A stretch of 27,565 nucleotides of DNA, from IMG/VR virus record IMGVR_UViG_3300035698_023141, positions 1 through 27,565 of that record, one strand, 5' to 3'. The position numbers were made by a program, and so were the translations under genes. The notes beneath the pieces are model-generated. The model ran no database searches. It saw only the letters and a program-made list of their open reading frames with translations, and was not told the origin of the DNA. The DNA is from a virus. The stretch's first letter is position 1, and each line of letters begins with the position of its first letter. This document shows, in pieces, positions 5,074 through 27,436 of this stretch.

Positions 5074-5412
5074 ATGTGTAACAATGCTAACAATGGCTCA
5101 AAATGGATAACCAGAAAGCGTAGGTTTGCCATTTATGAGAGAGACGATCACCGTTGTGTCTATTGCGGGATTGGGATGGAAGACGCCAAAGAACCCTTCA
5201 CCCTTGACCATCTCGTGGCGCAGGAGCTTGGCGGCACAAACGCTTCAACTAACCTCGTAACTGCCTGTAAAACCTGCAACTGCAGCAAAGGCTCAAAATC
5301 AAACAGAAGTTTTTTCAAATTCCTCGAGAATAAAGATGTAGATGTTGCAAAAATTAAGCATAGAATCAGGCGCAACGTGCGACGTGCCCTCAAAGGTAAA
5401 TTTAGAATTTAA
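5074..5412 (+). CDS. HNH endonuclease (McrA/5-Cys type)
   Basis: A 112-residue HNH nuclease. C28-x2-C31 and C65-x2-C68 form the structural zinc site, and L-D45-H46 is the catalytic strand, followed by N60 and the terminal N69, giving a complete active site. The C-terminus (residues 85-112) is strongly basic and probably binds DNA. The start at 5074 is set by ACAAGGAG; an in-frame ATG 48 bases upstream would begin before this site. Free-standing phage HNH genes can be homing endonucleases or act in DNA processing. It differs from the HNH at 65-463 in architecture and is not a duplicate. Confidence 0.85.
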   Translation: MCNNANNGSKWITRKRRFAIYERDDHRCVYCGIGMEDAKEPFTLDHLVAQELGGTNASTNLVTACKTCNCSKGSKSNRSFFKFLENKDVDVAKIKHRIRRNVRRALKGKFRI

Positions 5413-15237: not shown

Positions 15238-16788
15238 ATGTTAAAACTAAGACCATACCAACAAGAAGCACTTGATGCAGTATGGCTTTACTATCGGGCT
15301 GGTAAAAAAGGCAACCCATTAGTAGTAGCCCCGACTGGGTCTGGCAAGTCTATCATTATTGCAGGTTTTTGCGAACAGGTCAGAAAACTATGGCCTGAAC
15401 AGAGAATTTTGATACTAAGCCATGTGAAAGAAATTCTAACCCAAAACTTGGCAACAATTCAGAAGCTGTTGCCCGACGAAGAAATTGGCATTTATGCAGC
15501 TGGTCTTAAGCGGAAGGAAATAAAGACCATTACACTGGCGTCTATCCAGTCTGCGTACAATCAAATGAAGCTGTTTGAAGAGAATTATGATGTTGTTCTT
15601 GTAGATGAAGTTCATTTGGTACCTCACAAGGGTGAAGGCAGATACAGAACAATGATGAAGGCCATTGACAAGCCAATCATAGGCTTCACAGCCACACCGT
15701 TTAGGCTTGGCACTGGGTACTTGCACATTGGTGAAGGTGCCATGTTTGATGAGATCGTATACAACATAACCATCAAGCTGTTGCAAAAAGAAGGACACCT
15801 TTGTCAGATTGCTGCCAAAGGCACACGTGAAACACTTGACCCAACTACTATTCAAAAGACTGGTGGCGATTACATTGTGAGAGACTTGGCTGAACGGTTT
15901 GACAAGTTTGCTGTCACCAGCAAAATCATTGATGAGTTGATCCTATACAAAGACCTTAGAAAAAAATGGCTTGTGTTTTGCATTGATATTAGCCATGCTG
16001 AGCACGTGACAGAAGAGCTTGTAGGGAAAGGTATCAATGCCAAATGTGTCCATAGCAAGTCACACGACAGATCCAGAACCATTTGGGAATTCAAAACTGA
16101 CCAGAATCTTCAAGCATTGGTGAGTGTTGCTGTTCTGACAACCGGCTTCGATGCACCCAATGTTGACATGGTGGCCTTGCTCAGACCCACAGCATCGCCA
16201 GTTTTGCACATTCAAACAATCGGTAGAGGACTCAGACCATTCCCAGGCAAGAAAGACTGCCTGGTGCTTGACTTCGCCGGCAATTTGATTAGAAATGGGC
16301 CAATTGATAACCCTGACATAAGGGTTGCAAAAACAGGCGGTGACCCAATAATGAAAATGTGTCCTGATTGTTTTGAATTGTTGTACTCGGCTGTGAGACG
16401 TTGCCCAGTGTGTGATTATGAGTTCCTATTCCAGCATCACCTGTCTTCAACTGCTGGTGATGGCAATGTGTTGCAAACTGTGGAATGGCACCACGTTGAT
16501 AAGGTTACATACGATGAATATTTGACAAGAACAAACATGTTCATGCTCAAAGTCAACTATTTCTGTGGTCTTAGGACATTCTCGGAGTATGTAGGCATTG
16601 AACATGGCGGTTACCCAAGGCACAAAGCAACCTTCTGGTGGAAAAGGAGACATCATAAATCTTTGCCGGACACAGTTGCAGCAGCATTAGAAATGGCACA
16701 TGACCTAAAGGAGCCAGTGGAGATTTACGTTGATGAAGCTGGACAATATCCAAACATTAAAGAAATGAAATTTGAGGAGGGAGCATGA
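15238..16788 (+). CDS. SF2 DEVH-box DNA helicase
   Basis: A 516-residue superfamily 2 helicase of the XPB/RadD-like type. Q-like RPYQQEA (5-11), Walker A A-P-T-G-S-G-K-S (31-38), D123-E-V-H126, T151-A-T, and the C-terminal domain with TTGFDAPN and QTIGRGLRPF are all present. After the motor comes a zinc ribbon (CPDC...CPVC, about residues 380-400), then a domain rich in aromatic and basic residues (FWWKRRHH) found in phage relatives. It likely unwinds DNA in replication or recombination. AAGGAG precedes the ATG; the stop overlaps the next ATG by four bases. Confidence 0.85.
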   Translation: MLKLRPYQQEALDAVWLYYRAGKKGNPLVVAPTGSGKSIIIAGFCEQVRKLWPEQRILILSHVKEILTQNLATIQKLLPDEEIGIYAAGLKRKEIKTITLASIQSAYNQMKLFEENYDVVLVDEVHLVPHKGEGRYRTMMKAIDKPIIGFTATPFRLGTGYLHIGEGAMFDEIVYNITIKLLQKEGHLCQIAAKGTRETLDPTTIQKTGGDYIVRDLAERFDKFAVTSKIIDELILYKDLRKKWLVFCIDISHAEHVTEELVGKGINAKCVHSKSHDRSRTIWEFKTDQNLQALVSVAVLTTGFDAPNVDMVALLRPTASPVLHIQTIGRGLRPFPGKKDCLVLDFAGNLIRNGPIDNPDIRVAKTGGDPIMKMCPDCFELLYSAVRRCPVCDYEFLFQHHLSSTAGDGNVLQTVEWHHVDKVTYDEYLTRTNMFMLKVNYFCGLRTFSEYVGIEHGGYPRHKATFWWKRRHHKSLPDTVAAALEMAHDLKEPVEIYVDEAGQYPNIKEMKFEEGA

Positions 16789-17756
16789 TAATCATAGGAA
16801 GCGGAATGGCAGGGCTTTTAGCAGGTGCTGTCAACCAAACCGCAATCATTTTCGAAGCTGGTGAGAATTTGCCAGACAATCACAAGGCTGTTTTCAGGTT
16901 GAGAACAGACGCCATAAGCCGTTTTACTGGCATCAAAATGAAAGAAGTGACAGTGCATAAGGCTATATGGTTTGAAGGCCAGGAGAGGCAAATAACACCA
17001 CGTCTGGCTAATTATTACTCAATGAAGGTCATAGGTTGTATTCAGCAAAGATCCATCTTGAATGTAGCCCCTGCCAAAAGGTTTATTCCACCAAGAAATT
17101 TCGTTGATCAGCTTGCTAAAAAGTGTGAAGGCAGAATCAGATTTGAATTCAAGGTGGAGCGAATAAACAAGAGCTTCATTGAGTTCTATAAACAGCCATT
17201 ATGCAGCAAGTGCACTGACAGAAAAGACACACCTGTTATAAGCACCATGCCTATGCCTGTTTTGTGCGATGCCATTGGGCATGTCATATCACGTGACAAA
17301 GATGGCCTTAAACCAATCAAATTCAAAACAGGCCCAATAGTCATAAATCAATACACAATACACAACTGTGATTCTTATGCCACAATCTATTATCCAGATC
17401 CTAAAATGAGTGCATACCGTGCCACACTTGATGGCAACAGACTCATTGTTGAAGGTGTAGAGTATTTGACATCTGCTGAAGTTCATGAAGTTATGCAAAG
17501 CTTTGGCATCAAAGATGCAACAGGAACTGTTATAAATCAGAGACACAAAGCCGGCAAAATGTCGCCGTTGGATCCAGATGTTAGGCAGGCATTCATATAC
17601 AACGTCACCAAGGATCTCAATGTTTACAGCCTGGGCAGGTATGCCACCTGGAGACCCAGTGTAATGCTCGATGATGTCTTTGAGGACATCTTTATGATCA
17701 CAAAATTGATCCAACAGAATGATTATGAGAAATTTAAATACATACAAGGAGAGTGA
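16785..17756 (+). CDS. FAD/NAD(P)-binding oxidoreductase
   Basis: A 323-residue flavoprotein-like enzyme. It opens directly with a Rossmann dinucleotide fold, M-I-I-I-G-S-G-M-A-G (G5, G7, G10), followed at residue 24 by the acidic end of the second strand (FEAGE). Near the C-terminus SLGRYATWRPSVMLDDVFEDI recalls UDP-galactopyranose-mutase-type and amine-oxidase-type flavoproteins, where this part completes the FAD pocket. A CSKC pair lies mid-protein. Substrate unknown. The gene overlaps the helicase by four bases (ATGA) and its GAGGAGGGA site lies in the helicase end. It is the first enzyme of a metabolic cassette running to 23502. Confidence 0.7.
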   Translation: MIIIGSGMAGLLAGAVNQTAIIFEAGENLPDNHKAVFRLRTDAISRFTGIKMKEVTVHKAIWFEGQERQITPRLANYYSMKVIGCIQQRSILNVAPAKRFIPPRNFVDQLAKKCEGRIRFEFKVERINKSFIEFYKQPLCSKCTDRKDTPVISTMPMPVLCDAIGHVISRDKDGLKPIKFKTGPIVINQYTIHNCDSYATIYYPDPKMSAYRATLDGNRLIVEGVEYLTSAEVHEVMQSFGIKDATGTVINQRHKAGKMSPLDPDVRQAFIYNVTKDLNVYSLGRYATWRPSVMLDDVFEDIFMITKLIQQNDYEKFKYIQGE

Positions 17757-17757
17757 A

Positions 17758-17964
17758 ATGGACATCAAAGACCTAAAAATGTCTATCGCATTAACATCAA
17801 AATCAATCAAGAAACAATTGACAGATCTTGAAACTATCTTGGAATCAGAAGGGTTGAAGATTCGATCTGTTGATATTAAAATGACGGACTGGGACATATC
17901 AACATACAGAGGGAGTGAGACACTTAAAGAGATACAGCTCGTCAAAATTGAAGTGGTGTTTTAA
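17758..17964 (+). CDS. 68-residue protein before thyX, unknown
   Basis: A small protein: an N-terminal amphipathic helix (residues 3-31) followed by two probable beta strands ending LVKIEVVF. The start at 17758 lies one base after the previous stop, with ACAAGGAG upstream. No family recognised; the size and fold order suggest a small partner or regulator. It is sandwiched between the flavoprotein and ThyX genes and shares their transcription. Confidence 0.65.
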   Translation: MDIKDLKMSIALTSKSIKKQLTDLETILESEGLKIRSVDIKMTDWDISTYRGSETLKEIQLVKIEVVF

Positions 17965-17988
17965 CCCATAATTTACAAGGAGGAGCAA

Positions 17989-18738
17989 ATGCAAGAATCA
18001 GTCAAATTGATCAGCTACACGAAAGATGCCCTGGAGTTGTTGCTTTACACCAAAAACACAAGGTTAGAAGGAGGAGAAACGATAAACAACATAAAAGCAT
18101 GGCCCATGGAGAAGAAGCTGGAGCACCTTGAGTACATGCGCAATACAATCAAATCCAGCTGGGAAATGGTCGATTTTATTTTCGAAATCAAAGGTGTTGA
18201 TAAAAACTTCACCCATCAACTGGTCAGAACCAGAACAGGATCGTATGCCCAGCAAGCCCAAAGGGTTGTGGATGCAAGGGAGTATCCTTATAGCCATCTT
18301 GTTCCTGAAGAAGATTATGATGAGGCAATTCAACACTGCCAGCAGGTTTACGGAGACCTAATCGACAAAGGCTACCAGGTTCAGGATTGCAGAGGTGTTC
18401 TGCCTGGGTCAATCCACACAGAAATCATCGCCAAATTCAATCTGCGCACCCTTCACGACACTGGCCTGGTAAGGCTATGCAAACGTGCTGAAGGCAGTTA
18501 TCAGAGAGTGTTTGCACTCATGAAACAAGCAGTTGTTGATGTTTACCCGTGGGCCGAAGACTTCATCAAGGTTGCTTGCGCCTGGAACGGTGTTTGTATT
18601 TTTCCGCTTTATGAAGCATGCCCTGTAAAATGTTGGACAATCAAAGCAACCCAGTATCAGCTTGACAGGATACAAAAAACATGGTCTGAAACAGTGCACG
18701 TAGCAAACCCTAAAGCCAAAGCAGGGAGGACAATGTAA
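17989..18738 (+). CDS. thyX: Flavin-dependent thymidylate synthase
   Basis: A 249-residue ThyX, which makes dTMP from dUMP using FAD, NADPH and methylenetetrahydrofolate. The ThyX signature is at residues 80-92, R-T-R-T-G-S-Y-A-Q-Q-A-Q-R; the usual second His is Thr and the late Ser is Ala. The preceding FTHQLV and later NLRTLHDTGLVRLCKRA segments also match. AAGGAGGAG precedes the ATG. Phages use ThyX to secure thymidylate or, through altered relatives, to make modified pyrimidine nucleotides. The neighbouring methyltransferases, SDR and radical SAM genes raise the second possibility. Its stop overlaps the next start in TAATG. Confidence 0.85.
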   Translation: MQESVKLISYTKDALELLLYTKNTRLEGGETINNIKAWPMEKKLEHLEYMRNTIKSSWEMVDFIFEIKGVDKNFTHQLVRTRTGSYAQQAQRVVDAREYPYSHLVPEEDYDEAIQHCQQVYGDLIDKGYQVQDCRGVLPGSIHTEIIAKFNLRTLHDTGLVRLCKRAEGSYQRVFALMKQAVVDVYPWAEDFIKVACAWNGVCIFPLYEACPVKCWTIKATQYQLDRIQKTWSETVHVANPKAKAGRTM

Positions 18739-19184
18739 TGGATGCAGTCATATTTGACATCGACGGAACCCTTTCCATCATAACGGAAGAGAGACAAGAA
18801 CTCATCAAAAAGCGCAGTTGGGACAAGTTCCATCGGCTCAGCATTTGTGCACCTGTGAATGAGGCAATCAAAGCCAAACTGTTGCATTATTGGGCAAGAC
18901 GCAACACAGAACTCGTTCTTCTAACAGCCAGAGCAGAAAGGTGGAGAGAATCAACAATCCACTGGCTTGAGAAGAACGATATACCTTTCGACAGGCTGTT
19001 GATGCGTATAAATGGAGACAGAAGGCAAAGTTTCCATAGTAAAAAAGAACACGTTGAAACACTCGTAAATTTTGAAGCACGCAATGTCATTGTGGCCTAT
19101 GACGACCGCCAACAGGACATTGATCTATTTGAGTCAATGGGAATCAAAGCAATCAAAGTGGAGGGACAGAATGAGCATTTTTGA
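18738..19184 (+). CDS. HAD phosphatase, PNKP 3'-phosphatase-like
   Basis: A 148-residue HAD-superfamily phosphatase. Motif I is F-D7-I-D9-G-T11; motif II LLTAR (61-65); then a WL...IPFDRLLMR-x-N-GD-R segment closely resembling the phosphatase half of T4-type polynucleotide kinase, and the acidic YDDRQQDID for motif IV. No kinase half is present. It could remove 3'-phosphates from DNA or RNA ends or dephosphorylate a nucleotide; within a cassette of nucleotide enzymes the latter is attractive. The start overlaps the thyX stop and the end overlaps the next gene by 14 bp. Confidence 0.75.
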   Translation: MDAVIFDIDGTLSIITEERQELIKKRSWDKFHRLSICAPVNEAIKAKLLHYWARRNTELVLLTARAERWRESTIHWLEKNDIPFDRLLMRINGDRRQSFHSKKEHVETLVNFEARNVIVAYDDRQQDIDLFESMGIKAIKVEGQNEHF

Positions 19185-20052
19185 TACAGTGAAGGCACTG
19201 CCTATAGACAAGAATAGCATCTACATACAGCATGAAGATCGTGATCCCAAGGCAAGCAGCCTTGATGGCTTCGATAAGAACCAACGGATACTGATGGGCC
19301 AAGATACCAGAAACTGGCTTCACCTGTATCGTATGCTCACACTGTTTAAATTTGTAACGGATCATACCAAGCAGCACAAAGGTGTGGTGGCTGACATTGG
19401 TGCTGCTTATTGTGAGCTGCCCACTTTGTGCCAAACATCTGGCATAAAGTATAATTACTACTGCTTTGAATTTGATTACAAAAAGTTGAAAACAGTTTCA
19501 AAGCGAACAATAGGCAAATTCAATAGAGTGCTGGTTAGGACTGATCTCAGCCGTGGTATTCTGCCTTTGCCAGATGAATCAGTAGACACAATGGTTTGTG
19601 CTGAGTTTGCTGAACACATCAAAAAAAGTAGTTGGATAAGGCTTTTGAAGGAGCTAAATCGTGTTTGCAAGCAAGGTGCATATGCCATTCTAACCACCCC
19701 TAATATAATAGCCGGTGGCACTCCGCAAGTAGACCACATATATGAGTATGCCCAAACAGAATTTGGTGAGCTGCTTGATGCAGCTGGCTTTTCTGTGTAT
19801 CGCAAATTCGGAATGGGAAGCAAAACAAATATTTTGAAATTCGACAAAACCATGCTGTCAAACAGCCTATACAAGCATGCCAGAGAAAATCTACCGACTG
19901 GTTTTGTGAAACCATTGATTGGCACTGAAGATATGGACAATTGCAAATTGTCCATATGGTATTGTAAAAAGGACAAGGAGTATGATATAGATGCAATCAA
20001 TTCAATTGACTTTAGTGAGTCTGCAAAAAGGCAATGGAGGGAAGCAAAATGA
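19171..20052 (+). CDS. Class I SAM methyltransferase, copy 1
   Basis: A 293-residue methyltransferase of the type 11 (UbiE-like) group. SAM-binding motif I is VVADIGAAYCELP (72-84), followed by the acidic FEFD (99-102), and ESVDTMVCAEFAEHI as motif IV. The absence of a DPPY/NPPY motif argues against direct N-methylation of DNA bases; small-molecule or nucleotide substrates, or a protein, are more likely. The start at 19171 (GTGGAGGGACAG upstream) overlaps the HAD gene by 14 bp. The next gene is a paralogue, about two thirds identical by eye, with a 38-base identical DNA stretch. Confidence 0.75.
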   Translation: MSIFDTVKALPIDKNSIYIQHEDRDPKASSLDGFDKNQRILMGQDTRNWLHLYRMLTLFKFVTDHTKQHKGVVADIGAAYCELPTLCQTSGIKYNYYCFEFDYKKLKTVSKRTIGKFNRVLVRTDLSRGILPLPDESVDTMVCAEFAEHIKKSSWIRLLKELNRVCKQGAYAILTTPNIIAGGTPQVDHIYEYAQTEFGELLDAAGFSVYRKFGMGSKTNILKFDKTMLSNSLYKHARENLPTGFVKPLIGTEDMDNCKLSIWYCKKDKEYDIDAINSIDFSESAKRQWREAK

Positions 20053-20497
20053 GCATAGTAAAATTCGATAAAGTCAAATTGGCCGAGATCTTGCGTAACC
20101 AGCTTGGCGACAAAGTAGTTAGCATTGACATTGATGAATCAAAAAGCAATGTAAATGTTACCTTTGACAATAATGACATATTTGATACAGTCAAAGCACT
20201 GCCGATGGATGCATATGGTGTGTACACAAAGAACAAACGATGTGACACCAAAACAAATCACCTTGAAGGAAGCGACAAAGTGCAAAAAATATTTTCGGGG
20301 TTGGATACTAAAAATTGGTTGCACATGTACAGAATACTCATAAATTTTAAATTCTTGTTAGACAATGCCAACCCACAGTCTGTAGTAGCTGATGTTGGGG
20401 CTGGGTATTGTGAACTGCCAATGATGTGTCAAACATCTGGTAAACGGTATAATTATTATTGCTTTGAATTTGATTACAAAAAGTTGAAAACAGTTTC
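19462..20497 (+). repeat. 38-bp identical direct repeat in duplicated genes
   Basis: Bases 19462-19499 and 20460-20497 are identical over 38 bp, encoding the same segment (CFEFDYKKLKTVS) of the two methyltransferases, 998 bp apart. It marks a tandem duplication and a potential recombination point that could delete or fuse the copies. Confidence 0.9.
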
Positions 20498-21065
20498 CAA
20501 ACGCAAAATAGGTAAATTCAACAGGATCCTTGTCAGAATCGACCTTAGTAGGTCTGCTTTGCCGATGCCAGATGGATCAGTGGATACATTGGTATGCACA
20601 GAATTTGCTGAACACATCAAGAAAAACAATTGGATCAAATTATTGAAAGAGTTAAATCGCATTTGCAAACAAGGTGCACATGCCATATTTAGCACCCCAA
20701 ATATAGGCGGTGGCGGTATCCCACAAGCAGACCATATATATGAGTATACTCACACAGAGTTCTCAGAACTTGTTGATGCTGCTGGCTTTTCTGTGTATCG
20801 TAAATTTGGTATGGCGCCAAGGAAAAACATTGTAAAATTCGACAAAGAGTTATCATCAAACACCATATACAAACATGCTAGAGAAAACTTGCCAACTCAA
20901 TTTGTCAAACCATTGATAGGCACCGATGATATAGACAACTGTAAAATGGGAGTTTGGTTTTGCAAGAAAACCAAAGAATATAATGCAAATGCAATCAAAG
21001 CAATTGATTTTAGTGAATCTATGAAGTGCAGAGAAGCAATAGAATCAGCAGGAGGAGCCAGATGA
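20049..21065 (+). CDS. Class I SAM methyltransferase, copy 2
   Basis: A 338-residue paralogue of the preceding gene. Residues 1-43 are an extra N-terminal segment (probable beta-hairpin, helical start) absent from copy 1; from IFDTVKALP on the two align without major gaps. Motif I reads VVADVGAGYCELP, and GSVDTLVCTEFAEHI keeps the active-site region. Copy 1 has A where copy 2 has the canonical second Gly of motif I, a possible functional difference. The four-base overlap at 20049-20052 couples them. Two copies suggest two successive methylations or two substrates, or a heterodimer. Confidence 0.75.
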   Translation: MSIVKFDKVKLAEILRNQLGDKVVSIDIDESKSNVNVTFDNNDIFDTVKALPMDAYGVYTKNKRCDTKTNHLEGSDKVQKIFSGLDTKNWLHMYRILINFKFLLDNANPQSVVADVGAGYCELPMMCQTSGKRYNYYCFEFDYKKLKTVSKRKIGKFNRILVRIDLSRSALPMPDGSVDTLVCTEFAEHIKKNNWIKLLKELNRICKQGAHAIFSTPNIGGGGIPQADHIYEYTHTEFSELVDAAGFSVYRKFGMAPRKNIVKFDKELSSNTIYKHARENLPTQFVKPLIGTDDIDNCKMGVWFCKKTKEYNANAIKAIDFSESMKCREAIESAGGAR

Positions 21066-21352
21066 AACCAGATGAAATTCTCGAAAAATGGGCCAAATTT
21101 TTCAAAAAGCGCAACGAAGAATATGGGTCGTCATACTTACGCCACGGGGAAATAATGAAGCTGCTTTTCCCCAACGGCATCACACTTGAAACAGCCGACC
21201 ATTTTTATTACTTCCACATTTTCGTATTAGAACTTGTCAAGATCATTCGCATTGCAAACTCAATGCAGGCTGGCACTTCAAGCCTTGACTCATGGAAAGA
21301 CCTTGCAGTTTACGCAGCTATGTTTGTTGAAAAGGAGGAAGAGAATGACTAA
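21062..21352 (+). CDS. DUF1599/MazG-like nucleotide-linked protein
   Basis: A 96-residue all-helical protein. W-x4-F-x2-R-N-E-E-Y-G at residues 9-22, a central helix ELVKIIRIAN (60-69) and the closing DSWKDLAVYAAMF resemble DUF1599 and MazG-type all-alpha pyrophosphatases, where the E-E-Y-G/K-x2-R/D-x3-D residues hold metal and nucleotide. DUF1599 has been described as a nucleotide-modification-associated domain in phage DNA-modification operons. The match is by pattern, hence moderate. It starts in ATGA with the methyltransferase stop and overlaps the SDR start by eight bases. Confidence 0.6.
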   Translation: MKPDEILEKWAKFFKKRNEEYGSSYLRHGEIMKLLFPNGITLETADHFYYFHIFVLELVKIIRIANSMQAGTSSLDSWKDLAVYAAMFVEKEEEND

Positions 21353-22058
21353 AATCGTTATAACTGGAGCAGCATCAGGACTTGGATATGCTATGGCCTT
21401 ATCATTGGGATATGAGAGTGACACACTGATATTTGGACTTGACATAGAAACTGTTTCATCACCGGTCATCGATTTCAAAATATGTAATATCAGTCAGGAG
21501 CATGATACACTGAGAGCAGCCGAAATGATAGGCGATGTTGACATTCTTATCAATTGTGCTGGAGTAAATTTTATTGACTGGATCGAAAACACAACCGGCC
21601 ATGATTGGGATCGTATCATGGGCACAAATGCCAAAGGCATATTCAACACCGCCAAGGCTTTTATGCCAGCCTTGCTCAAGTCACAAGGAACCATTTTGAA
21701 CATCGTCAGTAACGCATCTCACATGCCTATGACAAACTCCATAGCATACAACGCAAGCAAGGGTGCTGCTCACATTATGACCCTGCAAATGGCCAGGGAA
21801 CTGGGCCCAAAGGGCATCACTGTATTTGGGATCTCACCGAATAAACTGGCCGGCACCGGTATGTCAAGATACATAGAGAATACGGTGTGTGGATTAAGGG
21901 GTTGGACACCTGAAGAAGCAGCAAAGTACCAGCTAAGCTCACTGCCGGCAGGTGAAGAAACAAATCCTGCTGTGTTGGCTGAGTTTATTACTTTTATATT
22001 GTCAACCAAGGAACGTCATAAATTTTTGGCTGGGACAATCCTGCCATACGGAAAATAG
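21345..22058 (+). CDS. Short-chain dehydrogenase/reductase
   Basis: A 237-residue SDR oxidoreductase. It has the cofactor motif T7-G-A-A-S-G-L-G14, the NCAG variant of NNAG (70-73), the active-site Y135-x3-K139 with Ser in the preceding VSNAS, and the usual length for the classical SDR group. Residue D33 at the end of the second strand (GLDI) suggests preference for NAD(H). Substrate unknown. AAAGGAGGAAGAG lies before the start at 21345, inside the end of the previous gene. An SDR between methyltransferases and a radical SAM enzyme is unusual in phages and points to a small-molecule pathway. Confidence 0.85.
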   Translation: MTKIVITGAASGLGYAMALSLGYESDTLIFGLDIETVSSPVIDFKICNISQEHDTLRAAEMIGDVDILINCAGVNFIDWIENTTGHDWDRIMGTNAKGIFNTAKAFMPALLKSQGTILNIVSNASHMPMTNSIAYNASKGAAHIMTLQMARELGPKGITVFGISPNKLAGTGMSRYIENTVCGLRGWTPEEAAKYQLSSLPAGEETNPAVLAEFITFILSTKERHKFLAGTILPYGK

Positions 22059-22067
22059 GAGAGACAA

Positions 22068-22553
22068 ATGAAAATTGATCAAATTGCAATAGGTACGGAT
22101 GCACCGAATACTATCATAGCTGTCCTCAACAGCATATTCGGATTGAATGAATGGGCTCACGATGTTGTCGTTGCGAAAGGCACTGTTTTCAATCTCTCAG
22201 CAACGAATGAAGCTGAATTGCACTTCAATTATCAACTCGGCATTGAAGTAGAAGTGCTTCGTTATAAACAAGGAGCCAATTGGCATCAAAACAGGAACCA
22301 CAATAATGCCATTGCCTTTCTGAGCCATGTAGGCATGCATTGCACAGAAGAAGATGTTGATGTTATGAAAAAATCGATGGCAGAAATGGGCATTGGGATA
22401 GCGCAGGAAGTCAACACGCTGTCACATACGAACCCATTTATAGATGGCAAACGGCTTTACCACTATGTTGTGTTTGACTCGAAAGCGAAATTAGGTGTTG
22501 ATGTCAAATGCATTGTGAGAAACATGCTCACGGAAGGAGAAAACAATGACTGA
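22068..22553 (+). CDS. VOC-fold (glyoxalase-like) protein
   Basis: A 161-residue protein resembling the vicinal oxygen chelate superfamily: paired beta-alpha-beta-beta modules, with E of IEVEVLRYK (about 62) and the His residues of HVGMH (91-95) in positions suited to metal binding, and a final YHYVVFDS...GVDVK strand pair. VOC enzymes isomerise, cleave or epimerise small molecules using a divalent metal. GGAGAG precedes the ATG. The stop overlaps the radical SAM start by eight bases. Specificity cannot be predicted; the fold call is moderate. Confidence 0.6.
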   Translation: MKIDQIAIGTDAPNTIIAVLNSIFGLNEWAHDVVVAKGTVFNLSATNEAELHFNYQLGIEVEVLRYKQGANWHQNRNHNNAIAFLSHVGMHCTEEDVDVMKKSMAEMGIGIAQEVNTLSHTNPFIDGKRLYHYVVFDSKAKLGVDVKCIVRNMLTEGENND

Positions 22554-23502
22554 CAAACACAAAAAAATAATGAGGTATATGAGATACGTGGACAGCTCAC
22601 TTGCACCTGTGTCTTTACAGGTTGGCATCACTGACCACTGCATAAACAAGTGCTACATGTGTGGGCATCCGGACAGAAAAGACAAGACTGAATTGGATTT
22701 GCATGATTGGCTGTTCTTCTTGTCCAGCCACCCGGAGATAGAATCTGTGTGCTATTCAGGAGGTGATCCTGTTTTATATTCAGGCATCAATGAAGTGATG
22801 GCTTTTCACATCAGACACAACATCAAATTCGGATTGATCACAGCTGGATACTTTCCAAATGCTGATCTTGGTCTATTGGCAGAAGCCAGATGGGTGCGTG
22901 TCAGCCTTGATTCAGTCACACCAAGCATTTATGACGAATGTAGAGGTGGCATCAGTGTCAACAAGGTTATAGACAGCATTTTGCAGGCGAAAGTTCAAAG
23001 TGTCAACATAGAATTGAACATAACAGTCAGCGAAAAAACAGTCCCAGGCCTAAACAGGCTATTCGAATTTGCGTTGATAAACCAATTGAATTTGGAGCTT
23101 CACCCTATATATGGTGGATCGATACGTAAATTGGGGATAGACGATCTGCTGCACGAATACGCAAATGCATTTTCTAAAAAAGGCATCCCATTTGATGTGA
23201 TATGCTACAACGATTCACAGCCAACCAACAAATGCAAAGCTGTTTATTACCAGTCTTTCATTGATGCGAAAGGAGACATTTACCCTTGCTGTATGATGGC
23301 TGGTGACACAACTGATTCGCCACAAGGGCCAAAGGTTGGCAACATTTTCCATTGGGGTGAATATCTGGAAGCAAGGGAAATATTCTCAAATTTGACAGCA
23401 GAAGAGCTTCCAAAGATGTGTAGTACTTGTCCAGAAAGGCTACGCCTGATAAACAACACCATTGGCAGTGACTCAAGGCACTACACGAAATCTTTTTTCT
23501 AA
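22546..23502 (+). CDS. Radical SAM enzyme with SPASM-like tail
   Basis: A 318-residue radical SAM protein. C32-x3-C36-x2-C39 binds the 4Fe-4S cluster; S-G-G-D-P (71-75) is the GGE-type SAM motif. The C-terminus has C230, C248, C249, C292 and C295 in the SPASM-like auxiliary-cluster layout (DAKGDIYPCC, then MCSTCPERL). Such enzymes use a 5'-deoxyadenosyl radical to modify peptides, tRNA or small molecules. GGAAGGAG lies before the start. It ends the metabolic cassette, nine bases before the exonuclease gene. No precursor peptide gene is visible, so a nucleotide or small-molecule substrate is favoured. Confidence 0.85.
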   Translation: MTDKHKKIMRYMRYVDSSLAPVSLQVGITDHCINKCYMCGHPDRKDKTELDLHDWLFFLSSHPEIESVCYSGGDPVLYSGINEVMAFHIRHNIKFGLITAGYFPNADLGLLAEARWVRVSLDSVTPSIYDECRGGISVNKVIDSILQAKVQSVNIELNITVSEKTVPGLNRLFEFALINQLNLELHPIYGGSIRKLGIDDLLHEYANAFSKKGIPFDVICYNDSQPTNKCKAVYYQSFIDAKGDIYPCCMMAGDTTDSPQGPKVGNIFHWGEYLEAREIFSNLTAEELPKMCSTCPERLRLINNTIGSDSRHYTKSFF

Positions 23503-23511
23503 GGAGGCAGC

Positions 23512-24072
23512 ATGTCAATAATTTTTGTCGACACAGAAACCACTGGATTGATTGAGACCGAAGGCAACGACATCATGAATCAGCCTTACATAATAGAAAT
23601 ATTCGCACTTAGAACCAATGAACAGTGTGAGGAAGAGGATCGTTTCCATGCTTTGGTGAAGCCACCCAAGCCGTTGCCAAAAATAATAACAAAGATCACA
23701 GGGCTTACTGATGAAAAGCTGAAAAATGAAAAACCATTTGCCTCTATTTACAGGCCACTGGTAAACATATTTTTCGGTGTCCATACATTCGTGGCCCACA
23801 ATGCTGTTTTTGACTTAGGCATGTTGACCAATGAATTAACAAGGATAGAAAGGCAATACATGTTTCCATATCCGCCAATCCATTTTTGTACAGTTGAACA
23901 GTCTATGTTCGTAAAAGGGCACCGGCTCAAGCTTGTAGAGCTGCACAAACTTGCCACAGGCAAACCAGAAATAGAGAATGCCCATAGGGCTGAATCCGAT
24001 GTCATGGCTATGGTTGCCTGTTATAAATGGCTCAAACAACTAAAGGAGAATAAAGGAAATGACCTGGCTTAA
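23512..24072 (+). CDS. DnaQ-like 3'-5' exonuclease
   Basis: A 186-residue DEDDh exonuclease of the DNA polymerase III epsilon type. Catalytic residues: D7-x-E9 (VDTETTG), D101 in VAHNAVFD, and H158-x4-D163 (AHRAESD). The AAGGAGG site lies eight bases before the ATG. The gene overlaps the polymerase gene by 14 bp, so the proofreading subunit and polymerase are translationally coupled, as for a two-protein phage replicase. Confidence 0.85.
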   Translation: MSIIFVDTETTGLIETEGNDIMNQPYIIEIFALRTNEQCEEEDRFHALVKPPKPLPKIITKITGLTDEKLKNEKPFASIYRPLVNIFFGVHTFVAHNAVFDLGMLTNELTRIERQYMFPYPPIHFCTVEQSMFVKGHRLKLVELHKLATGKPEIENAHRAESDVMAMVACYKWLKQLKENKGNDLA

Positions 24073-26872
24073 TTTGCATACAGAATTCAGTTTCGGCTCC
24101 GTTTTTGGCCACATAGAAAAAGTGGCTGAACATGTTGAAGGGCAAGCATTTGCAGGCATTGCAGACTACTGTTCAACATGGGGCCACGTCAAATGGAGGA
24201 AGTTTTGTCAGAAAAATAACGTCAAACCGGTCTATGGAGTCAAGTTACCTGTGGTGGATCAACTTCAAAGGGAGGTGAGAAGGTATCCATACAATGACAT
24301 GACGTTCATTGCTATAACAACAAAAGGTCTGCAGGCCATATATCAGCTTGTAGATTTTGCCCATCAACAGTTTTATTACCGTCCCAGATTGACTTACGAC
24401 CAGGTCAATGACCTACCGGCTGAACATATTGCCGTTTTTTCAGGGATAGCGCCAAGAACAGACCTTTTGAAGAGGCATTTTTACTTGGAGCTAACCCCTG
24501 CTACGCCTGATCATTTGAGGCAGGTCACAGATATCCCAATTATTGCTGGGTGTGACAACTCATATATCAACCCGGAAGACAAAATTGTGTATGAGCCGTT
24601 TGCGCATGAGCGAAAAATTGAGCGCAAAACCTCATCACAATACATCATTAGTTGGAATGACTGGTGGGAAATGTATCCTGGCTGCAAAGAAGGCATAAAA
24701 AACCTTATTGAGCTTGGAGAAAAGTGCAATGCCGAGCTTACCAATGCGGACATGGTCAAATTTTACAAGAAAGCAGACATACACAAGCTATGTTTGGCTG
24801 GTGCCAAGCGTAGAAAAATTGATTTAACAGACCCAGTTTACAAGGATCGGTACGATTTTGAAATGAAACTCATAAAAGACAAGGGTTATATTGATTATTT
24901 TCTTGTAGTTGCTGACGTTATCAAGTACGCCAAGACAAAAATGGTTGTAGGCCCAGCACGAGGAAGTAGTGCCGGCAGTTTAGTGTGTTATCTCATGGAC
25001 ATCACAGAGGTAGATCCAATACCTTACGGGCTTTATTTTGAACGATTCATTGACATCAACCGTTTTGACTTGCCTGATATTGACGTTGATTTTCAAGACG
25101 ACAGAAGGGATCTGATAATCAAGTATTTGCAAAGAAAGTATGGCAAAGAAAACGTGTCCCAGATGGGTAATGTCAATAGGATGAAGCCGAAGTCAGCAAT
25201 CACAAGGTTTTCCAAAACACTAAACATACCGATTGAAGATGTGATTGAAATGAAAGATGCCATCTTGAAACGATCTGGCGGTGATTCAAGAGCTGCTTTG
25301 TGTATAGAGGATACAATCAATGAAACTGATGTAGGCAAACGGTTCATCGAGAAGTATCCAAGCATGAAGATCCTGTCAAAAATAGAATCACATGTGAGCC
25401 ACGCTGGAATTCACGCAGCCGGCATTCTTGTTTGCAACAAGCCTATCACAAATTATTGTGGCATCAACAGCCGTGATAATAAACGCATTGGCATGCTGGA
25501 TAAAAAGGATGCGGAAGCTATTAATTTGCTAAAAATAGACGCATTAGGACTCAGGACATTGACGATCTTTGCCAAGGTATGCGATTCTATTGGCAAACCT
25601 TATCCATGGCTCTACACAATTCCTTTAGATGATCCTGATGCATATAAAGTGTTCAATGATCAACGGTTGACTGGCATCTTTCAATTTGAAGGCCACGTTT
25701 CAAGGTCTTTGAATAAACAAATGCCAATAGAAAACATGGAAGATATATCAGCATTAGTTGCTATCGCTCGGCCTGGTCCTATTGTATCAGGCGGTGCCAC
25801 TGCTTATATTGAAGCCAGAACAGGCAAACACAAAGTTGAGTACATAAGCAAACATCCAACCGTGATAAAGGCAACCAAAGATACATTTGGTGTTGTCATC
25901 TATCAGGAACAGGTACTGAACATTGGCAGAAATTACGGTGGGCTCAGTTGGGCAGACACCAGTGAACTAAGGAAGGCAATGAGTAAATCTTTAGGTGAAG
26001 AATTTTTCGATCAATATAAGAAAAAGTTTGTTGATGGCGCTATCAAGAAAGGAGAAACAGAAGAAGATGCTATAAAAGTTTGGAAGTACATAAATACCTT
26101 TGGTTCATGGGGGATGAATAAGAGTCACACCATTAGTTACTCTATTATCAGTTATCTGTGCGCATACCTCAAGGCTCATTACCCAATGGAATTTGCTGTG
26201 GCTTGCCTCAATCATGCCAAAGACGATCCATCTGCGCTGAAACTGTTGAGGGACTTGTATGAAACTGAAGGCATTGAGTATGTGCCTTATGACGTCAAAC
26301 TCAGCGAAGTTAAATGGTCAGTGAAGAAGGGCAAGCTATATGGTGGCCTGACAACCATCCATGGCATTGGCCCAGCTAATGCCAGGAAAATAATCAAGTT
26401 GAGAAAGGAAAAGAAAAAATTCCCACCTGGCATTCAGAAAAAACTCAAAGAGGGTATCACTCCTTTTGAGTTTCTGTACCCAGCCACTGAAAAGTATGGG
26501 GAATATTACAAGACCCCGAAAGAATTTGGTGTCAAAGGCAAAATCAAAACAGTCAGCCAAGTCACCAAAAATGGCAAGTATACTATCATTGGTTGTTTGA
26601 TCCACAAGAATCTAAGGGATTCAAACGAGATTATGAATGTGTCAAAAAGAGGTGGCAAGTATTTGGATGGGCCAACGTCTTGGCTCAACTTGACGTTAGA
26701 AGATGACACTGACAATATAATTTGCACCATAGGCAGGTTCGATTACGAACGTGTAGGCATACATATAGCTGAAACAGGCAAAGAGAACAAGGACTGGTAC
26801 ATGGTATATGGCGTAATGAAGAGTGATTGGAGAAAATTATATGTACAAAACATAAGGAGGATCACAAAGTGA
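24059..26872 (+). CDS. dnaE: DNA polymerase III alpha-type replicase
   Basis: A 937-residue C-family polymerase. The N-terminal PHP domain is degenerate (N5-L-H7-T, where the active HxH has lost its first His), so it probably lacks metal-dependent nuclease activity. The palm has G-P-A-R-G-S-S-A-G (298-306), the catalytic pair D340-x-D342 in LPDIDVDF and the third carboxylate D494 in LLKIDALGL; the fingers and KSHTISYSI loop follow. After residue 830 an OB-like strand set (YTIIGCLIHK, SWLNLTLED) remains, shorter than in bacterial DnaE. It overlaps the DnaQ-like gene at its start and the next gene at its stop. It is the phage's replicative polymerase, expected to meet whatever modified nucleotide is made upstream. 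Confidence 0.9.
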   Translation: MTWLNLHTEFSFGSVFGHIEKVAEHVEGQAFAGIADYCSTWGHVKWRKFCQKNNVKPVYGVKLPVVDQLQREVRRYPYNDMTFIAITTKGLQAIYQLVDFAHQQFYYRPRLTYDQVNDLPAEHIAVFSGIAPRTDLLKRHFYLELTPATPDHLRQVTDIPIIAGCDNSYINPEDKIVYEPFAHERKIERKTSSQYIISWNDWWEMYPGCKEGIKNLIELGEKCNAELTNADMVKFYKKADIHKLCLAGAKRRKIDLTDPVYKDRYDFEMKLIKDKGYIDYFLVVADVIKYAKTKMVVGPARGSSAGSLVCYLMDITEVDPIPYGLYFERFIDINRFDLPDIDVDFQDDRRDLIIKYLQRKYGKENVSQMGNVNRMKPKSAITRFSKTLNIPIEDVIEMKDAILKRSGGDSRAALCIEDTINETDVGKRFIEKYPSMKILSKIESHVSHAGIHAAGILVCNKPITNYCGINSRDNKRIGMLDKKDAEAINLLKIDALGLRTLTIFAKVCDSIGKPYPWLYTIPLDDPDAYKVFNDQRLTGIFQFEGHVSRSLNKQMPIENMEDISALVAIARPGPIVSGGATAYIEARTGKHKVEYISKHPTVIKATKDTFGVVIYQEQVLNIGRNYGGLSWADTSELRKAMSKSLGEEFFDQYKKKFVDGAIKKGETEEDAIKVWKYINTFGSWGMNKSHTISYSIISYLCAYLKAHYPMEFAVACLNHAKDDPSALKLLRDLYETEGIEYVPYDVKLSEVKWSVKKGKLYGGLTTIHGIGPANARKIIKLRKEKKKFPPGIQKKLKEGITPFEFLYPATEKYGEYYKTPKEFGVKGKIKTVSQVTKNGKYTIIGCLIHKNLRDSNEIMNVSKRGGKYLDGPTSWLNLTLEDDTDNIICTIGRFDYERVGIHIAETGKENKDWYMVYGVMKSDWRKLYVQNIRRITK

Positions 26873-27102
26873 AACATAAAAGCAAGCTTGTTCAGTCGTT
26901 TGGCATAAATAGCCACGATGACTTTGAGGCTTTTAGAAAGGCCATCAACCCCAACCCTACATGGACTGCCATTTACTATAATGTTATTATGTTGGGGACG
27001 ACTTATGAGAAAGCCGGTGAGCCGTTTGCAATGACTAAAATGGCAGTTTATTTTCGTTTAAGAAAGGCAAAACATGATTACGACAAAAGAACTGCCAAGT
27101 GA
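26869..27102 (+). CDS. 77-residue HTH-like protein, unknown
   Basis: A small basic protein. The GTG at 26869 overlaps the polymerase stop in GTGA, with ATAAGGAGG upstream; an in-frame ATG 42 bases earlier lies inside the polymerase gene and before this site, so it is rejected. Residues 42-75 (GTTYEKAGEPFAMTKMAVYFRLRKAK) read as a helix-turn-helix pair with a basic recognition helix. The final 29 bases overlap the nuclease gene. DNA binding is inferred; no family recognised. Confidence 0.6.
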   Translation: MKHKSKLVQSFGINSHDDFEAFRKAINPNPTWTAIYYNVIMLGTTYEKAGEPFAMTKMAVYFRLRKAKHDYDKRTAK

Positions 27103-27436
27103 GCACATAGAGCAAGTGCTGTTTATCCAATGGGCATACAGGAAAGAATTGCCTGTGTTTGCAATACCAAACGGTGGGCTCAGAAATAAAATTGTAGCAG
27201 GAAGATTAAAGCTTGAAGGCACAAGATCCGGTATACCAGATCTATTTTTGCCTGTTGCCATTAAACCATATCACGGATTGTTCATTGAAATGAAAAGGCA
27301 GAAAGGAGGATCACTAAGCCCAAACCAAAAAGACTGGATAAAGAAACTAATTGAGCAAGGATATAAAGTCATTGTCGGCAAAGGAGCAAGTTCAGCCATC
27401 GCTCAAACGGCTGAATATTTATCAATAAAAATTTAA
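27074..27436 (+). CDS. VRR-NUC domain nuclease
   Basis: A 120-residue stand-alone VRR-NUC nuclease, a PD-(D/E)XK subgroup common in phages and acting on branched or flapped DNA. Motifs: E10 near the N-terminus, AIPNGGLRNK (30-39), G-I-P-D56-L-F-L-P, I-E72-M-K74 and the downstream SPNQKDW helix. The length is that of complete single-domain members. It overlaps the preceding small gene by 29 bp. Junction or flap processing during replication or packaging is the likely role. Confidence 0.85.
   Translation: MITTKELPSEHIEQVLFIQWAYRKELPVFAIPNGGLRNKIVAGRLKLEGTRSGIPDLFLPVAIKPYHGLFIEMKRQKGGSLSPNQKDWIKKLIEQGYKVIVGKGASSAIAQTAEYLSIKI

Follow-up and report, generated by a model that had tools for sequence, protein, structure and literature searches.

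A conserved ThyX/flavoprotein gene cassette beside phage DNA polymerase genes: a candidate pathway for deoxypyrimidine hypermodification

What does a phage do with ten closely packed, mostly enzyme-coding genes placed directly before its DNA polymerase? This question is raised by IMG/VR record IMGVR_UViG_3300035698_023141, an uncultured viral contig and genome fragment of 27,565 bases that was analysed over its full length (the window). In it, ten open reading frames (ORFs) follow one another on one strand from 16785 to 23502, most of them preceded by ribosome-binding sites and with spacings of -14 to +24 bases, and genes for DnaQ and then DnaE come immediately after them (Table 1). The first-pass annotation of the window had described ten coupled genes next to DnaQ and polymerase genes, and the ORFs, their spacing, the family matches and an order that recurs in other phages all bear this out. 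We consider it likely, with a probability of about 0.65, that this cassette encodes a hypermodification pathway, by which the phage makes a modified deoxypyrimidine nucleotide for its own replication complex, shielding its DNA from restriction. Such a route through a ThyX-like enzyme and a flavoprotein is apparently undescribed, and our reading of the base goes as far as a deoxypyrimidine.

Chance falls far short of explaining the linkage of the cassette genes, whose order recurs across dozens of divergent phages. Of 50,697 phage records, 359 contain the flavoprotein and 54 the VOC protein; 291 of the flavoprotein records belong to Pseudomonas phages, mostly Pbunavirus. The order in annotated phages is flavoprotein, ThyX, HAD phosphatase (with a DUF6378-like domain), short-chain dehydrogenase/reductase (SDR), VOC, DnaQ and DnaE, and it is found complete with SDR and VOC in phages Gekk3-15 of Aeromonas, Bas99 of Escherichia coli, FoX7 of Xanthomonas, Pluto of Luteibacter, MTx of Serratia and Kyle of Pantoea. 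Pseudomonas phage PB1 has the core without SDR and VOC, and in Microbacterium phage Sparcetus genes for an oxidoreductase, HAD, SDR and VOC proteins lie beside DnaE, with ThyX further off. For our main counts the flavoprotein profile was the only bait; dereplication at 80% and a requirement for 6 kb or more of downstream sequence left 46 loci. ThyX follows the flavoprotein in all 46, DnaE is present in 44 and DnaQ in 43, and 41 of the loci contain the DUF6378-like protein and 39 the HAD phosphatase; the SDR (16/46), VOC (15/46) and radical SAM (9/46) genes are optional. A wider dereplicated set of 82 loci, which also draws on a search with the VOC protein and in which a polymerase-module gene was required, has SDR and VOC together in 46 and SDR without VOC in 2. 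The search for the same gene order in other phages, proposed at first pass, thus found the genes linked rather than scattered, in phages of Xanthomonas, Aeromonas, E. coli, Serratia, Pantoea, Luteibacter, Pseudomonas, Vibrio, Cronobacter and uncultured hosts. The enzyme combination, said at first pass to match no pathway known to that reader, is not unique to the window phage, although its two methyltransferases, which are paralogous (68% amino acid and about 76% DNA identity), had no relative in the phages, viral contigs or genomes scanned.

The ThyX-like enzyme of the window matches Pfam PF02511 (Thy1) at E 2e-27, with 96.7 bits against a curated cut-off of 24.8, and a profile built from 60 cassette copies matches solved ThyX structures at E 1e-18. 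The NCBI thyX model matches all 60 of these copies (best E-value 8e-31), but the window enzyme scores 64.4 bits against an equivalog cut-off of 87.9 (NCBIfam TIGR02170), some relatives scoring higher. Like bacterial ThyX from Thermotoga maritima (TM0449) and Mycobacterium tuberculosis, the cassette enzyme has the Thy1 domain, an aligned core and both arginines of the RHR signature. It differs from them in that the position of TM0449 His53 is Ile in 60/60 cassette proteins by profile alignment, in that the middle residue of RHR (the His79 position) is Thr in 48, Ser in 7, His in 3 and Asn in 2, and in that the S88 position is Ala in the window phage. The window enzyme reads R-T-R and has neither the RHR signature nor the His53 of ThyX. 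If His53 contacts folate and the RHR region binds flavin and deoxyuridine monophosphate (dUMP), as we take to be the case, these changes suggest that the chemistry or the carbon donor may differ. The flavoprotein has no Pfam match. Its AlphaFold2 model (predicted local distance difference test score, pLDDT, 92) points to a GR2-type flavin adenine dinucleotide (FAD) protein, closest to UDP-galactopyranose mutase, p-hydroxybenzoate hydroxylase and amine oxidases. The mutase is the best fold match (E 1e-11, query template-modelling score about 0.67), but the flavoprotein is only 12% identical to it and much shorter, and a sugar-nucleotide activity is unsupported. A scan of bacterial genomes for the flavoprotein, made with a narrow DNA pattern, gave no match.

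The HAD phosphatase matches HAD_PNKP (E 5e-16) and is fused to a DUF6378-like domain in many relatives, in which no Pfam kinase was found. RNA or DNA end repair of the PNKP kind was considered and rejected, the enzyme being a stand-alone HAD phosphatase in a cassette that contains neither a kinase nor a ligase. DUF6378 (PF19905) is matched at E<0.05 by 30 of 37 members of the next core family, and only weakly by the window copy, and a PDB profile search with this domain gave chance matches only. None of the 37 matches the DUF1599 model, so that the DUF1599/Nmad1 identity is rejected, and with it goes the argument for nucleotide modification that the first-pass annotation had drawn from a DUF1599 label. 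In several cassettes a T4 DenV-like pyrimidine-dimer glycosylase gene (PF03013) lies between the ThyX and HAD genes (8187-8549 in our locus L073 and 8161-8526 in L093; also L032, L042, L119, L158 and L071).

The variable genes of the cassette share one span. They include a 165-amino-acid methyltransferase family (12 loci), carbamoyltransferases (PF02543/PF16861; 4 loci), sulfotransferases (PF00685; 3 loci) and, in locus L189 alone, a family-2 glycosyltransferase, and elsewhere an FkbM-type methyltransferase co-occurs in this span with SDR, VOC and radical SAM genes. The 165-amino-acid methyltransferases, carbamoyltransferases and sulfotransferases are found in half (15) of the 30 cassettes that lack SDR/VOC and in none of the 16 that have it (Fisher p=6e-4). 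Such a fixed core with swappable group-transfer enzymes beside a polymerase looks like base hypermodification. This exclusivity test was rerun without an accessory family of about 280 amino acids (L101, L097, L152, L144, L113), whose candidate identity as glycosyltransferases was rejected for want of Pfam or PDB support; by an acidic motif the family (L101 10918-11757) is possibly a GT-A-like transferase.

Among the optional enzymes of the window phage, the SDR is matched at E 5e-33. The VOC protein has a weak glyoxalase/VOC sequence match and a high-confidence VOC-fold model (pLDDT 94), which is closest to a putative methylmalonyl-CoA epimerase (3gm5, E 2e-8), and its conserved residues His87, His91, His120, Glu60 and Glu62 are putative metal ligands. 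For the radical SAM enzyme, a single-sequence search gave no relatives in viral contigs and two remote matches in phages, and relatives were recovered only with a profile search. All 16 newly fetched relatives at >=31% identity sit with cassette genes, two further matches of the scan (L105, L125) are cassette loci already known, and close relatives of this radical SAM/SPASM enzyme are thus found in this cassette only; their loci include arrangements of SDR, FkbM methyltransferase and VOC genes that resemble the window. In many cassettes the gene next to that of the radical SAM enzyme belongs to an unassigned family of about 260 amino acids with no Pfam match (L112 8039-8830; also L114, L125, L149, L186, L191 and L192). 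In L186 and L191 the flavoprotein-ThyX-radical SAM cassette lies among neighbouring genes that look unlike those of the window, which suggests cassette transfer between phage lineages.

In the pathway that we propose, the ThyX-like enzyme and the flavoprotein would put an altered one-carbon or other group on C5 of dUMP (or of deoxycytidine monophosphate), the HAD phosphatase and the DUF6378-like protein would manage the competing nucleotide pool, and DnaE would polymerise the modified nucleotide. In the window phage the side group would be elaborated by the SDR, VOC, radical SAM and two methyltransferase enzymes, in whose place other phages would use carbamoyl-, sulfo- or other methyltransferases. 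A bolder version, to which we give slightly less than even odds, treats these cassettes as a kind of phage DNA hypermodification not described before. In this version a ThyX-derived enzyme with an obligate flavoprotein partner would form a new C5-substituted deoxypyrimidine by flavin chemistry foreign to known thymidylate synthesis, interchangeable genes for SDR/VOC, radical SAM/SPASM and methyl-, carbamoyl-, sulfo- and glycosyltransferases would tailor it differently from phage to phage, and the pathway would be present in therapeutic Pseudomonas phages and explain the resistance of Wifcevirus and Pbunavirus.

Published restriction phenotypes of cassette carriers fit such a modification. The Wifcevirus phages Bas98-101 are insensitive to every restriction-modification (RM) system tested but EcoP1_I, and no mechanism that would protect them is known (PMC11990801); Bas99 carries the cassette. 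DNA of Pbunavirus JG024 is not cut by ScaI, NdeI or BsaI although it has sites for them, and its authors attribute this to methylation (PMC10913387); the related PB1 has 2, 7 and 8 such sites, respectively, in 60 kb. Yeast-made JG024 DNA rebooted only in RM-lacking hosts, and the unrelated phage DMS3 likewise gained from RM removal (PMC10913387). Pbunavirus AA20 resists 10 of 16 enzymes and AC20 7 of 16 (PMC11945000). Joining these reports to the cassette is our own step, not one made in the excerpts cited. The modified-nucleotide pathway of the first-pass annotation is in this way retained in outline, with gene linkage and the published resistance of carriers fitting it and the DUF1599 argument removed; the base and the order of steps are what we infer.

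Several observations weigh against modified DNA as the product. In the AA20 study no more than 11 of the 16 enzymes cut the DNA of an unrelated phage (PMC11945000). XbaI and SacII do cut Pbunavirus DNA, XbaI also that of JG024 (PMC10913387), and a PB1-like phage has been mapped with HindIII, EcoRI or XbaI (PMC6521218), which implies that a modification, if there is one, is incomplete or leaves some enzymes unhindered. Pbunavirus and Wifcevirus have the core (Wifcevirus also SDR and VOC) without the radical SAM enzyme or methyltransferases of the window, and their resistance is presumed to depend on the cassette. We found no nucleoside analysis of any cassette phage in the literature, and no paper naming the cassette in the open-access literature, subscription papers and preprints lying outside the search. 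Palindromic-site avoidance gave no clear signal as a marker of modification, the observed-to-expected ratio of palindromic 6-mers being 0.63-0.85 in cassette phages and 0.48-0.67 in T7, lambda, phiKMV and LUZ24; this test is non-diagnostic, and we draw no support from it, because avoidance is strongest in the hypermodified phage M6 (0.47). Finally, ThyX of actinophages with DnaE-type polymerases (L172, L173, L174, L176) has RSR or RQR in place of RHR, so that such changes may be a general phage trait, and this suggests, from the sequences, a wider non-canonical phage ThyX group beyond the cassette.

How far, then, could the cassette serve other ends? It might be a nucleotide-supply module, in which ThyX makes deoxythymidine monophosphate, the HAD, DUF6378-like and oxidoreductase proteins tune or recycle nucleotide and folate pools so that replication can be fast, and the DNA bases are ordinary. 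ThyX, phosphatases and nucleoside triphosphate pyrophosphatases are indeed common phage pool enzymes, the Thy1 match given above is strong, and the thyX model matches all 60 cassette copies. We nevertheless regard this as unlikely, since it leaves unexplained the obligate flavoprotein partner, the SDR/VOC, radical SAM/SPASM, sulfo- and carbamoyltransferase genes and the restriction resistance of carriers, and since the window ThyX scores below the equivalog cut-off. The product could also be a soluble small molecule, a modified free nucleotide or cofactor that never enters DNA, such as one that acts as a decoy for, or inhibits, nucleotide-signalling defence; nucleoside natural products are also made with tailoring enzymes of these classes, and the profile matches of the radical SAM enzyme include cytosylglucuronate decarboxylase. 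Near-constant DnaQ-DnaE adjacency (43-44/46) together with carrier resistance favours DNA over a diffusible product and makes this alternative improbable.

A variant that we hold to be very improbable retains modified DNA and changes the order of events, the core making a base that is ordinary or bears a simple substituent, with the accessory enzymes acting on polymerised DNA. Known hypermodification does proceed in this manner, hydroxymethyl bases being decorated following polymerisation, but no DNA-binding domain was recognised by Pfam in the accessory enzymes. A glucosyl case of such decoration is described in PMC8670742.

Table 1. Cassette genes and flanking genes of the window; 17758 (small ORF), 19171 and 20049 (methyltransferases), 21062 and 21345 are likely starts (SAM, S-adenosylmethionine).
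Feature	Position	Strand	Remarks
DEAD/ResIII helicase	15238..16788	+	neighbour on left, also in nearest relatives
FAD flavoprotein	16785..17756	+	phrog_4828; predicted GR2 fold, nearest structure eukaryotic-type UDP-galactopyranose mutase; core
Small ORF, 68 amino acids	17758..17964	+	PHROG match only weak; function unassigned
ThyX-like enzyme	17989..18738	+	non-canonical RTRTGSYAQQAQR signature; Ile54 at T. maritima His53 position; core
HAD phosphatase, PNKP type	18738..19184	+	DIDGT motif; core
SAM-dependent methyltransferase copy 1	19171..20052	+	Methyltransf_11
SAM-dependent methyltransferase copy 2	20049..21065	+	Methyltransf_11; paralogue of copy 1
DUF6378-like protein	21062..21352	+	core
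SDR	21345..22058	+	YxxxK; optional; nearly always with VOC gene
VOC-fold protein	22068..22553	+	glyoxalase / methylmalonyl-CoA epimerase fold; optional
Radical SAM/SPASM enzyme	22546..23502	+	CX3CX2C, SPASM cysteines, C-terminal FF; optional
DnaQ-like 3'-5' exonuclease	23512..24072	+	conserved neighbour on right
DnaE-type DNA polymerase III alpha subunit	24059..26872	+	conserved neighbour on right

Elsewhere in the window, 5688-7250 encodes a protein with weak histidine-kinase/HSP90-like ATPase and weak SprT-like metalloprotease matches, and a sequence resembling its N-terminus occurs inside the cassette region of L144 (18951-20057). A pentapeptide-repeat protein with DUF5758 at its C-terminus (10595-11368) is a possible DNA mimic, and an HNH endonuclease (5074-5412) and a VRR-NUC nuclease (27074-27436) are also encoded.

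If the hypermodification pathway is real, it has been overlooked in very common phages, including culturable E. coli phages and the 291 Pseudomonas records, mostly of Pbunavirus, which is in wide therapeutic use. The pathway would provide a mechanism for reported, unexplained restriction resistance, new nucleotide chemistry in the form of a ThyX/flavoprotein pair and a SPASM enzyme in nucleotide modification, and a catalogue of tailoring enzymes for producing modified DNA.

Among known systems, 7-deazaguanine modification (QueE, QueC, QueD, FolE, DpdA) is also a phage cassette with a radical SAM enzyme and restriction resistance, but the radical SAM enzyme here is of the SPASM type, and no FolE, QueD, QueC, QueE or DpdA was recognised among the cassette proteins. 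The thymidine hypermodification pathways of phages SP10, M6, ViI and PhiW-14 start from a ThyA-type dUMP hydroxymethylase and proceed through a DNA kinase and pyrophosphorylase-like transferases. The cassette shares with them a thymidylate-synthase relative, flavin, radical SAM and group-transfer enzymes and restriction-resistant DNA, and differs from them in its ThyX-type enzyme, which has a different flavoprotein as its obligate partner. Among the ten proteins that the cassette encodes in this 27.6 kb fragment, the only thymidylate-synthase relative is of the ThyX type, no ThyA-type dUMP hydroxymethylase being present, and Pfam and PHROGs recognised no 5-hydroxymethyldeoxyuridine DNA kinase or pyrophosphorylase-like transferase. 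The MetaGPA cassettes for carbamoylation of 5-hydroxymethylcytosine likewise have a thymidylate-synthase homologue near a TobZ-type carbamoyltransferase, but their enzyme is ThyA-type (PF00303) and the excerpt describes no flavoprotein core (PMC8670742); in our cassettes the carbamoyltransferase is one of several alternative tailoring genes and is absent from the window. In the modified contigs of that report the carbamoyltransferase beside the thymidylate-synthase homologue carbamoylates 5-hydroxymethylcytosine, a precedent for a thymidylate-synthase relative that makes a C5-substituted pyrimidine nucleotide, later decorated by, for example, a carbamoyltransferase (PMC8670742).

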